Of a DNA stretch of 64,000 nt, positions 26,389 through 30,499 are shown in pieces. Source of the stretch: Phycisphaera sp. Its GTDB lineage: Bacteria > Planctomycetota > Phycisphaerae > Phycisphaerales > SM1A02. The DNA lies in the NCBI GenBank assembly GCA_016124975.1, contig WGMP01000021.1, positions 1 to 64,000 of the forward strand, written 5' to 3'. How positions within the stretch are numbered: position 1 is the first letter of the stretch; every line of letters begins with the position of its first letter. The notes beneath the pieces are model-generated. The model was not told the DNA's origin, did no database searches, and saw only the letters and a program-made list of their open reading frames with translations. A program made the position numbers and the translations under genes.

Positions 26389-27413
26389 GCGCCGCCCCCC
26401 GCGCCGTGCGGCGCATCGCCGTCGCGGCGCGCCGCATCGTGCACCAGCTCGACGAACACGCTCTCGAGGCTGCGGACCTCGGCGCCCGCCCGGCGCACGC
26501 GAAGGCCCCTAGCCGCGAGCGCACGCACCGCCTCGGCGCGCGCGGCGTCGTCGGCGAGCGCGAGTTCGCTGCGCCACCATCCGTCCGCAAGCGCGCGCGC
26601 GGCGACGCCCGCGGGCGGCGCGTCCGTCTCGACGACGAACGACGAGCCCTCGCTCGCGCGCGCACGGAACGCCTCGAGCGTCTCATGGACGACGAGCCGG
26701 CCACCCGCGATCACGGCCAGTTCGCCGCACACGCTCTCGACCTCGGAAAGGAGGTGCGACGAGAAGAGGACGAGGCGCGATTGGCCGAGCTCCCGCACGA
26801 GCGTGCGGAAGACGAGCGTCTGACCTGGGTCGAGGCCGACCGACGGCTCGTCGAGGATCACGAGCGCAGGGTCGCCGAGGATGGCGGCCGCGAGACCCAC
26901 CCGCTGCTGCATGCCCTTCGAGAGGGTGCCCGCACAGCGATGCGCGAAGCGCGCGACATCGCAGCGGCGCATGCACTCGTCGATCGCGGCGCGCGCCCGC
27001 GCCCCTGAGAGCCCCGCGAGGCCCGCGCGGAAGCGCATGTGCTCGAGCACCGTGAGTTCAGGCGAGAGCGGCGCGGACTCGGGGAGATATCCGATGCGCG
27101 AGCGGACCGTCGCACCCGCGCGCCGCGCGTCGAGCCCGGCGACCTCGAGGACGCCCTCGTCAGGCTCGAGGATGCCCGCGATCATGCGGATCGTGGTCGT
27201 CTTGCCGGCGCCGTTTGGGCCGAGCAGCCCGCACACGCCTCGCGATGGCAGCGCGAGGTCGATGCCGCGCACGGCCGTCACCGCGCCGAACCGCTTCACA
27301 AGCCCGCGCGCGCGGACACCAAGCGGTGCGCCTGCGGCAAGCGCCGATCCCTGTGCGCGTTCGGTGTTGGCGGAGGTCGTCGAGGCCATCATCGCGCGGC
27401 TTTCATCGGGCAC
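26385..27413 (-). CDS. ABC transporter ATP-binding protein (GldA/CcmA-like)
   Basis: GARGLVKRFGAVTAVRGIDLALPSRGVCGLLGPNGAGKTTTIRMIAGILEPDEG...LSKGMQQRVGLAAAILGDPALVILDEPSVGLDP; overlaps the next gene by 4 bp. Confidence 0.92.
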   Translation of the reverse strand: MPDESRAMMASTTSANTERAQGSALAAGAPLGVRARGLVKRFGAVTAVRGIDLALPSRGVCGLLGPNGAGKTTTIRMIAGILEPDEGVLEVAGLDARRAGATVRSRIGYLPESAPLSPELTVLEHMRFRAGLAGLSGARARAAIDECMRRCDVARFAHRCAGTLSKGMQQRVGLAAAILGDPALVILDEPSVGLDPGQTLVFRTLVRELGQSRLVLFSSHLLSEVESVCGELAVIAGGRLVVHETLEAFRARASEGSSFVVETDAPPAGVAARALADGWWRSELALADDAARAEAVRALAARGLRVRRAGAEVRSLESVFVELVHDAARRDGDAPHGAGGGA

Positions 27414-27504
27414 GGAGCGGGCCAGAGTGTACTCCGCGGCCTTGTTCCACAGGGCGCACGCGGCAGACGATGGCTTCTACAATGCGCCCCCGCACGAAGG
27501 CCGC

Positions 27505-29082
27505 ATGTCCACGGAGACGCCATCGCCAGATCCGGCATCGCCGCACGATCCCCGCGCGGCGGGTGTTCATGGCCTCATCGGTCTGCGCGCGCTTGAACTC
27601 CTCGGCGAAGGCGTGGGCGTGGTCGAGCCGTCGGGCGAGATCGTGTGGATGAACAACCGCCTCGCCGGACAGTCGCCTGAGGTGCTTCGGCGTTTCGCGG
27701 ATGCATGCGTCGAGGCGATCTCCGCATGGCGCGCGTCGCCCGCGGCAAGCCAGACGATGCGCTCGGGCTTCCGAACGGGAAGCTCGTGGTTCGAGGTGGT
27801 GATGACGCCGCTTGCCCGAGGCGTCGAGCGCGTGCCTGTGCTCGAGGCCCCCGCGGGTCCGCTGCCCGCGGAGCGCCGCGAGGGCGCCGTGGCGCTGCTC
27901 GTCGACGCGACCCCCGCGCGCCGCATCCACGACCGCCTCGACGCGATCGATGCGGCGGGCGCAGAGTTCCTCAAGCTCGACGCGGAGTCGGTGCGCACGC
28001 TGAATGCCCCCGAGCGCCTGAAGCTCCTCGAAGGGCGCGTCATCGCGGCCACGCGCAGCCTCCTCGGGTTCGACCACTTCGAGTATCGCCTGACCAACCG
28101 CCGCAGCGAGCAGCTCGAGCTCGTCTTCTGCTCGGGCCTCGTGCCGCTTGGAATCGGCGAGCGTATCTTTGCCCGCGCCGAGGGAAACGGGCTGAGCGGC
28201 GTGGTCGCCTCGACCGGCAAGAGCATCGTCTGCCGCGATGTCGCGGCGGACCCGCGCTACATCGGCGGCCTTCCCGGCGCGCGCAGCTCGCTGACCGTAC
28301 CGCTTGTCCTCCACGGCCGCGTCATCGGTGTCCTCAACGCCGAGAGCGAGAAGCCCGCGCAGTTCGACGACGAGGACCGGCTCGCGGCGGAACTGATCGC
28401 GCGCTATGTCGCGCTCGCGCTCAATCTCCTCGACATGCTCGTCGCCGAGCGCGTGGAGACGGCGCGCACGGTCCTCGCGAACCTCGCGCGCGAGTCCACG
28501 CCGCTTCTCGACGCGATCGCCACCGACGCACGCACGCTGCACGGCGCGCTCGGCACAGACGCGGCCGCGACCACCGAGCGCATCATCGAGCGCACCGCGC
28601 GGCTCGACGAACTGGTCCGCAACGGCGCGACGACCCCGAGCGGCGTGCTCGGCGCGGCCGAGGCGCTCTGCGAAGGCGCGCGCGACCCCGTGTTCGCAGG
28701 CCGCCGCATCCTCGTCGCGGACGACGAGCCGTCGATCCGCCGCACGGTGCGGGCGGTGCTCGAACAGCAAGGCTGCGAAGTGTCGGAGTTCGCGGACGGC
28801 GCCACCGCGATCACCGCGATCCGCGAGCTCGTCGCTGCGGGAACGCCGCCCGACCTCGTCATCTCCGATGTCCGCATGCCCGACGCGAACGGCTACGAGG
28901 TCTTCCGCGCCGCGAAGGACGCGTCGCTTGCGATTCCCGTGATCCTGATGACGGGCTTCGGCTACGACCCGAACCACTCGATCGTGCGCTCGAGCCAGGA
29001 GGGGCTGCACTGCTTCCTCTTCAAGCCGTTCCAGGTCACACAGCTCCTCGAGGAATCGCGCAAGGCGCTGCTGCGCGAGTAG
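27505..29082 (+). CDS. PAS-like/GAF sensor with C-terminal response-regulator receiver domain
   Basis: GVGVVEPSGEIVWMNNRLA (PAS-like); SGVVASTGKSIVCRDVAADPRYIGGLPGARSSLTVPLVLHGRVIGVLNAESEKPAQFDDED (GAF); RRILVADDEPSIRRTVRAVLEQQGCEVSEF...PDLVISDVRMPDANGYEVF (REC). Confidence 0.88.
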   Translation: MSTETPSPDPASPHDPRAAGVHGLIGLRALELLGEGVGVVEPSGEIVWMNNRLAGQSPEVLRRFADACVEAISAWRASPAASQTMRSGFRTGSSWFEVVMTPLARGVERVPVLEAPAGPLPAERREGAVALLVDATPARRIHDRLDAIDAAGAEFLKLDAESVRTLNAPERLKLLEGRVIAATRSLLGFDHFEYRLTNRRSEQLELVFCSGLVPLGIGERIFARAEGNGLSGVVASTGKSIVCRDVAADPRYIGGLPGARSSLTVPLVLHGRVIGVLNAESEKPAQFDDEDRLAAELIARYVALALNLLDMLVAERVETARTVLANLARESTPLLDAIATDARTLHGALGTDAAATTERIIERTARLDELVRNGATTPSGVLGAAEALCEGARDPVFAGRRILVADDEPSIRRTVRAVLEQQGCEVSEFADGATAITAIRELVAAGTPPDLVISDVRMPDANGYEVFRAAKDASLAIPVILMTGFGYDPNHSIVRSSQEGLHCFLFKPFQVTQLLEESRKALLRE

Positions 29083-29171
29083 GAGCGCGCGTCATCGACG
29101 CCATAGCCCAGGGGGTCCGAGTGCGTCACGATGCGGACGAAGTCGTGCCAGTCATCGACTCCGACGCGTGT

Positions 29172-29277
29172 CGTTCCGCAGGTTGAAACCTGCGGGCACC
29201 CCTCGTGAGTGACTCCCACGACCTGAACCTTGCGACACGAACATCAGGGGTGCCCGTGGACTTCAGTCCGCGGAACG
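29172..29277. repeat. REP/BIME-like element, copy 1
   Basis: Arm CGTTCCGCAGGTTGAAACCTGCGGGCACCCCT (29172-29203) and inverted arm AGGGGTGCCCGTGGACTTCAGTCCGCGGAACG (29246-29277); each arm contains its own hairpin. Confidence 0.85.
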
Positions 29278-29308
29278 GATGGTGTCAGCCTTCGACTCCG
29301 GCGGTTTG

Positions 29309-29415
29309 CGTTCCGCAGGTTGAATCCTGCGGGCACCCCTGGTGAGTGACTCCCACGACCTGAACCGCGCGACACGAGAATCAAGGGGTGCCCGCATGCT
29401 TCAGCATGCGGAACG
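29309..29415. repeat. REP/BIME-like element, copy 2
   Basis: Arm CGTTCCGCAGGTTGAATCCTGCGGGCACCCCT (29309-29340) and AGGGGTGCCCGCATGCTTCAGCATGCGGAACG (29384-29415); the spacer (GTGAGTGACTCCCACGACCTGAACC...GCGACACGA) is also shared with copy 1. Confidence 0.85.
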
Positions 29416-29422
29416 GATGGTG

Positions 29423-30499
29423 TCAGCCGTCGAGCCCCGAACGCACCGCGACCAGCACACGGTCGATTCCCTCGCCGTCGACGAGGATCTCCGCGTCGCG
29501 CCATGCGCTTCCCGCGACGAGCGCAAGCGCCGACGCGCGGTGCTTCCAGCCGACCTCGACGAGAAGAAGCCCGCCTCGCGCGAGGTGCCGCTCCGCGCCC
29601 GCGACGATGCGGCGCACGAGGTCGAGCCCGTCGCGGCCTCCGCGCAGGGCGATGGCGGGCTCGTAGTCGCGCACGTTCGCGTCGAGCGCCGCATACTCCT
29701 CGTCGGTCACATACGGCGGGTTCGACGCGATCAGGTCGAAGCGCTCGTCAGGTCTCACTGCGGCGAAGAGGTCGCCCGTGCGGAAGTCGATCTCGACGCC
29801 GTGTCGCGCTGCGTTGCCGCGCGCAAGCTCGACGGCCTCGGGCACGATGTCAGACGCCGTCATGCTCGCACGGCGCCGCGCGGCATCGGCCGAGACCGCG
29901 GGTGCGGACTGCTGCTCGCCCGAATCGGGCGACGAGATCACCCGCGCGACCACCTCCGCCTCAGCGCCCTCGGCGCCCTTCGCGCCCGCGGAGATCGGCT
30001 TGCATCCGAGCCCCTCCGGCCGCGCGATCGCGCGCATCCCGAGCGCGATCGACACCGCGATGCACCCGCTGCCCGTGCAGAGGTCGAGGACGCGCGCAGA
30101 CGAGTCGCCCTCCGCGCAGCGGGCCCGATACCAGTCGAGCGCGCGCGTGACGAGCGTTTCCGTCGAAGGCCGCGGGATCAGCGTGCACGGCGCCACCGCG
30201 AAGTCGCGCCCGAGGAACGGCCATCGGCCGACGAGGAACTGGACGGGCTCGTGGCGACCCGCGCGCGCCACCAGCGCCCGCAGCGCCGCGAGCTCCTGCG
30301 GATCAAGCTCGCGTTCAGGCTCCATGTAGAGCCCAAGCCGCTCAACGCGCAGGACCTCGGCGAGCAGGATCTCCGCGACCGCCCGCGGACTGTCGACCGA
30401 GCGTTCCTGGAGATAGGGAACGATCCACGCAAGAAGTGCGCGGACCGTCCAGCGCGTGGGCGCTGCGGCGTCGCCGGCGGGTGCCTTCGGACTCGACAT
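29423..30499 (-). CDS. prmC: Peptide chain release factor N5-glutamine methyltransferase
   Basis: HEPVQFLVGRWPFLGRDFAVAPCTLIPRPSTETLVTRAL...VLDLCTGSGCIAVSIAL...FDLIASNPPYVTDEEYAALDANVRDYEPAIALRGGRDGLDLVRRIV. Confidence 0.93.
   Translation of the reverse strand: MSSPKAPAGDAAAPTRWTVRALLAWIVPYLQERSVDSPRAVAEILLAEVLRVERLGLYMEPERELDPQELAALRALVARAGRHEPVQFLVGRWPFLGRDFAVAPCTLIPRPSTETLVTRALDWYRARCAEGDSSARVLDLCTGSGCIAVSIALGMRAIARPEGLGCKPISAGAKGAEGAEAEVVARVISSPDSGEQQSAPAVSADAARRRASMTASDIVPEAVELARGNAARHGVEIDFRTGDLFAAVRPDERFDLIASNPPYVTDEEYAALDANVRDYEPAIALRGGRDGLDLVRRIVAGAERHLARGGLLLVEVGWKHRASALALVAGSAWRDAEILVDGEGIDRVLVAVRSGLDG

Follow-up and report, generated by a model that had tools for sequence, protein, structure and literature searches.

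The 64,000-nucleotide stretch of Phycisphaera sp. DNA analyzed here (the window) carries, at 29152–29433, two 137-bp units of a high-copy repeat of the REP/BIME type. Sequence comparison makes it highly likely that we are dealing with a BIME of two units, from a REP family restricted to the genus and dispersed, we infer by transposition, by a single-copy RAYT encoded elsewhere in the genome (C15:38529–39065). The evidence lies in the copy number and fixed frame of the repeat, the covariation of its stems, its adjacency to a RAYT gene in two species, array-free orthologous sites in congeners and placement at gene 3' ends. Compensating stem changes and heterodimers are not new, because both have been published for GTAG and CGTC REPs; what we describe is a new family within a kind of repeat that is already well known. 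New are the family itself, a tag outside both described super-families and the many stems held in one frame beside one RAYT, together with three further details: the assignment of hairpin classes to particular positions, the absence of units with both arms of one class, and the ending of arrays inside linkers.

The array in the window

A preliminary description of this DNA, made from the letters alone, had proposed four hairpin arms that share one frame and stand in inverted pairs within a duplicated unit of ~137 bp. All four arms were located (table 1), with 4 matches to the frame pattern in the window against 0 in 100 shuffles, and the direct repeat has a period of 137 nt with 77% identity between the window copies. 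The extent first assigned to the element, 29172–29415, is covered by the array but falls slightly short of its true span of 29152–29433, because half an outer linker flanks both ends. Stem compensation, likewise proposed from the window, is real (AGGTT/AACCT versus ATGCT/AGCAT), with small corrections to two stems: that of arm 2 (CCGTGGACT/AGTCCGCGG) contains a G.T pair (C.A on the other strand) and that of arm 3 (CCGCAGGTT/ATCCTGCGG) a T.T mismatch adjoining the loop. Rfam returned no match within the window, and phage and plasmid collections held nothing similar to the array. The final residues of prmC and its TGA stop, on the opposite strand, come from the array's right end (29423–29434 read against the open reading frame at 29423–30499); REPs that supply stop codons have already been reported (Di Nocera et al. 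2013, PMC3733652).

Table 1. Repeat array and flanking genes, in window coordinates.
Feature	Position	Strand	Basis
Flanking gene, GAF and response-regulator domains; start uncertain; 3' end towards array	26881..29082	+	Pfam PF00072, PF13185
Outer linker, left half (tcatcgactccgacgcgtgtc); left end of array	29152..29172	+	Fits end of outer-linker consensus from the genome's arrays
REP arm 1, position P1, class C: GTTC-CGCAGGTTGAAACCTGCG-GGCACCCC	29173..29202	+	Frame match; fold -15.7 kcal/mol
Inner linker, 50 nt, also present in other arrays	29200..29249	+	Array comparison
REP arm 2, position P2, class B: GTTC-CGCGGACTGAAGTCCACG-GGCACCCC	29247..29276	-	Frame match; one C.A pair, G.T on other strand
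Outer linker, 33 nt (ggatggtgtcagccttcgactccggcggtttgc)	29277..29309	+	Length, 33 nt in 62/63 outer linkers
REP arm 3, position P1, class C with one substitution	29310..29339	+	Frame match; T.T mismatch beside loop
Inner linker, 51 nt	29337..29387	+	Array comparison
REP arm 4, position P2, class A: GTTC-CGCATGCTGAAGCATGCG-GGCACCCC	29385..29414	-	Frame match
Outer linker, right half (ggatggtgtcagccgtcga); right end of array	29415..29433	+	Array-end comparison
Flanking gene prmC (release-factor methyltransferase), convergent	29423..30499	-	Pfam PrmC_N PF17827

Stem classes, unit anatomy and covariation

Rather than being single copy, the element is abundant in its host: the genome (G000; 3.61 Mb, 59 contigs) has 126 matches to the exact frame GTTCCGC..GGGCACCCC, and 0 to a reversed-pattern control of the same frame. 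Some 180 arms of all classes were found in the 509 kb read around frame matches (arms outside these 509 kb were counted by pattern only), and they fall into seven main stem classes. Between GTTC and GGCAC, these are A (CGCATGC-TGAA-GCATGCG), B (CGCGGAC-TGAA-GTCCACG), C (CGCAGGT-TGAA-ACCTGCG), D (CTTGGAC-TTC-GTCCAAG), E (AGCAGAC-TGAA-GTCTGCT), F (CGGGGAC-TTC-GTCCCCG) and G (CGTGGAC-TTC-GTCCACG). Both GTTC and GGCAC are invariant in 16 distinct arms, which were picked by GTT and GCAC; sampling anchored on the linkers agrees with this invariance. The arms thus have the hallmarks of REPs, being palindromes of 20–40 bp at high copy with a conserved unpaired 5' tag beside the stem, and, as in BIMEs and REPINs, they form clusters of alternating inverted copies with conserved linkers. 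The tag itself (GTTC/YGTT) is neither GTAG nor CGTC nor a listed degenerate form of these.

Read along the outer linker, the order of the unit is P1 arm, inner linker, P2 arm, outer linker, with a period of ~137 nt; inner linkers are mostly 50–51 nt long. The arms of a unit are two different REP hairpins, inverted and with their tags outside, so that each unit is a head-to-head heterodimer. Class is tied to position, with A (30), E (16), F (15), C (14) and G (8) at P1 and B (45), A (36) and D (13) at P2, and the same tie is seen in linker-anchored sampling. Class A alone is common at both positions, yet A never faces A; indeed, same-class pairs number 0 of 64 across inner linkers (5.6 expected by shuffling) and 0 of 63 across outer linkers (7.1 expected), a statistic that is weaker than its figures look, since units are copied whole. 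Where arrays give way to unique DNA, the junction falls not at the tag but in a linker, either the outer one around GTCGACTCC or the inner one.

The stems covary strongly. In a set of 16 distinct arms drawn from four congeneric species, seven of the eight stem pairs change on both sides, and cells with a double change number 25 against 6.3 ± 2.6 after shuffling (0 of 500 shuffles as high), a count of arm types whose copies are related by descent and are not independent events. Relatedness of this sort, with few independent changes among 16 arm types, would fit a reading in which the stem differences are drift and compensation is an artefact of choosing matching pairs, as would the fact that our first arm finder demanded pairing. 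The search was rerun with the frame alone, and without any demand for pairing it gave 199 matches in the 509 kb, of which 179 have 6–7 of 7 pairs; the remaining 20 are mostly unlike any arm class and are apparently chance matches in flanking sequence. Linker-anchored sampling, which takes the positions beside the 33-nt outer linker, found an arm at 171 of 194 positions. Both samples, neither of which requires pairing, return the same classes, and the frame-only search confirms the covariation; sliding the partner by 1–3 columns abolishes the signal; we hence regard drift and artefact as a barely credible account. In the linker-anchored sample, arms differ from their nearest class at 1.6% of sites, and linkers differ at 12% of sites around one consensus or at 5.7% when nine representatives are used.

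The one C.A pair of class B (G.T on the other strand) is kept in 39 exact copies, for example at 29247–29276 of the window, and class-B-like arms of a second species, G006 (arrays L165, L166 and L173), keep the same mismatch with the outer pair changed from C.G to A.T. This persistent mismatch may mark the strand that is read.

The RAYT gene and the family in congeners

Matches to Y1_Tnp in the genome lie on contigs C15, C30 and C14. The protein encoded on C15 scores 89.9 bits against NF047646 (the NCBIfam equivalog for REP-associated tyrosine transposase; cut-off 80) and 31.2 against PF01797 (Y1_Tnp; cut-off 23) and carries the motifs NHVH and YIHLNP. It is therefore a Y1 transposase with HUH and Y---NP motifs above the curated cut-off for a RAYT, and the HUH and Y-x-x-x-N-P residues are invariant across three aligned RAYTs. 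A PDB sequence search gave a single match, E. coli TnpA_REP bound to REP DNA (4er8; E 0.0039), which is also the best fold match of the predicted model, as supporting evidence only given the model's low confidence (mean pLDDT 60.7). A look for a Y1 or RAYT gene elsewhere in the genome had been proposed as a check, and this one adjoins the window's own family: an A-C-A array stands directly upstream, on the 5' side of the gene. The G006 RAYT is 61% identical, and its locus repeats the host's arrangement of acsA, regulator, RAYT and array; in both genomes family REPs flank the gene on its 5' side, and no array was found on its 3' side. More distant relatives of the protein come from records labelled Phycisphaerales, Phycisphaeraceae and Planctomycetaceae.

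The transposase also bears on whether the arrays arose by plain tandem duplication or as a MITE of an ordinary DDE insertion sequence whose terminal inverted repeats are the hairpins. Inverted arms and dispersed copies would suit such an origin, which is nevertheless very unlikely: the hairpins are short and internal rather than long terminal inverted repeats, the arrays end in linkers and not at inverted-repeat ends, and the transposase beside them is of the HUH/Tyr and not the DDE type.

Two further genes of this kind have other repeats around them. The second RAYT-like gene (L092 1850–2661, on C14), also above the NF047646 cut-off, has on both sides a different hairpin (CCACCACTGGAAGTGGTGG then CACCC) and long repeated flanks, and the third Y1 transposase gene (L091 1900–2900, on C30) is flanked by long GGTGCCAAGCACGTGCC..GGCACGTGCTTGGCACC palindromes.

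An exact-frame search of 80 relatives gave only two single, unrelated-looking matches outside the host genome. With a covariance model, arms number at least 119 in the host genome, 63 in G006, 46 in G008, 44 in G003, 11 in G004 and 3 in G014, with essentially none outside the genus. Arrays in G006 share the frame and use three stems: E, a CGCAGAC form (rare in the host genome) and the B-like form. At the acsA locus, G003 has an array without a RAYT and G004 a different RAYT (39% identical); an acsA-type RAYT locus was not found in G008. No orthologous RAYT was found in these three genomes, which hold 11–47 arms in assemblies only 82–88% complete, and since three congeners thus carry arms without a detected orthologue, the link between RAYT and repeats is not a strict one. 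Arrays may persist after the transposase has been lost, or the G003 and G008 assemblies may be incomplete. Covariance-model matches in G012 were set aside, as a frame-only search of seven loci gave no clean GTT..GCAC hairpin arms; a few hairpins there carry GTT..GCAT and may be a diverged relative of the family.

The gene pair around the window's array is conserved in congeners, in five of which the aligned blocks are separated by 45–165 bp of array-free DNA, against ~350–390 bp here. Because the orthologous site is shorter and array-free in these five, the array was probably inserted in the host's lineage, which backs the earlier suggestion of a mobile family in an intergenic region. The intergenic DNA flanking the array is highly diverged between species, which precludes comparison of target-site duplications.

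Gene placement, proposed mechanism and known REPs

Apart from small overlaps with gene ends, the array groups are situated between predicted genes. The convergent setting noted for the element is enriched among the genome's arrays by the gene calls of our own codon model. Of the 18 array groups whose neighbours could both be read, 10 lie between convergent genes and 8 between genes in tandem, with 0 divergent cases; background intergenic regions of 50 bp or more divide into 22, 107 and 35 in the same order (p = 1.2e-4 for the convergent class). Gene 3' ends face arrays at 52:15 against 151:177 in the background (p = 1.9e-6). The element had been suggested as a possible bidirectional terminator, for which we find no support in the form of an intrinsic terminator: the arms have no U-tract or T-run, and array orientation relative to genes running into arrays, counted by hand, has no clear bias (14 same, 10 opposite).

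Such placement might instead mean that the hairpins are retained because they serve the host (in protection of mRNA 3' ends, structure- or Rho-dependent termination, or binding of protein to DNA) and spread mainly by recombination and gene conversion, with the RAYT incidental or itself domesticated for that role. Arms far more conserved than linkers, and repeats that persist in congeners lacking a detected RAYT orthologue, point the same way. However, 3'-end and convergent placement is also explained by selection against harmful insertions, such as those into promoters, and the missing U-tract, the unbiased orientation and the adjacency of RAYT and arrays in two species all count against a host function, which we judge unlikely, if less so than the alternatives above.

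Under dispersal by the RAYT, arms would fold while the DNA is single-stranded, probably during lagging-strand replication, and the RAYT would recognize the invariant foot (GTTC on the 5' side, GGCAC on the 3' side) together with the shape of the fold, not the sequence of the stem. Its HUH/Tyr site would cut at a nearby dinucleotide in a linker, and the unit would be moved or copied into another intergenic site, where local tandem growth by recombination could produce arrays and copies landing at gene 3' ends would survive selection. Binding, cutting and movement by the C15 RAYT, and any benefit to the cell, are what we infer here. Besides the arms in congeners with no orthologous RAYT, the tag outside GTAG and CGTC and the presence of an array on the 5' side only of the host's RAYT count against this account. 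A more speculative elaboration, which we put forward with low confidence, is that one RAYT accepts at least seven stem sequences via foot and shape, that GTTC guides cutting at GA in the repeated outer-linker motif GTCGA.CTCC, that the mobile unit is the 137-bp segment with its ends outside the tags, and that the avoidance of same-class arms stops the arm pair of a unit from collapsing into one long perfect hairpin. TnpA_REP cuts tagged single-stranded REPs at CT, with the tag as guide (PMC8266576), and by analogy the GTTC tag yields a sharp prediction of that model, namely cutting at GA. Several array ends near GTCGA are compatible with it; at least two ends (L045 and L052) are not.

Most REPs have been sorted into the GTAG and CGTC super-families, with GTTC unmentioned; tandem clusters, head-to-head heterodimers and sub-families whose stems differ by complementary changes are known (Di Nocera et al. 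2013, PMC3733652). Like GTAG REPs and E. coli BIMEs (PMC3733652, PMC8266576), the present repeats are short 5'-tagged palindromes, intergenic and at high copy, that form head-to-head heterodimers, tandem clusters and complementary stem sub-families with G.T pairs and have a cognate HUH/Tyr RAYT, whereas their tag is GTTC (or YGTT, with the closing C.G pair assigned to the stem) and they have a fixed 3' foot, GGCAC. With CGTC REPs (PMC3733652) they share a 3' unpaired tail besides the 5' tag and a prevalence of head-to-head dimers, yet the tags differ, the tail is GCACCC rather than CCA, and the stem opens with C.G rather than A.T pairs. RAYT groups with atypical hairpins have also been described (PMC6006769): both subclass 2.6 and class 3 have flanking hairpins without GTAG, and class 3 occurs in Planctomycetes. 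The C15 RAYT (NHVH, WQ, YIHLNP) resembles subclass 2.6 (NH[LIV]H, WQ, YIH[QN]NP) in its motifs; subclass 2.6, however, is mostly found in Bacteroidetes, and class 3 differs in its Y----Q motif and in its foot, CnGA. In REPINs (Bertels and Rainey 2011, PMC3116915) an inverted REP pair with its spacer is likewise the repeating unit, but here no unit in the host genome has both arms of one class, and the arrays end past the tags, in linkers. The family contributes a well-sampled REP/RAYT pair whose host belongs to the planctomycete order Phycisphaerales and whose tag fits neither described super-family, and its seven stem classes in one frame with one RAYT amount to a natural experiment on transposase recognition.

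The true arrays are probably longer than assembled, because 31 of the 49 array groups sit at contig ends (C1, C5, C15, C16, C25, C27, C33 and others). A second palindromic repeat, GGAAGCCGCCGCAGCGGCGACCGCT, has 78 copies with up to 2 mismatches in the host genome (for example at C29:42434–42558, C48:38662–38786 and C49:1–125, and within arrays L043, L062 and L090). Part of it forms ~50-bp tandem arrays of its own, and it is often met within REP arrays or at their ends; its stem also varies with compensation (GCCGC/GCGGC, GCAGC/GCTGC and GCGGC/GCCGC).
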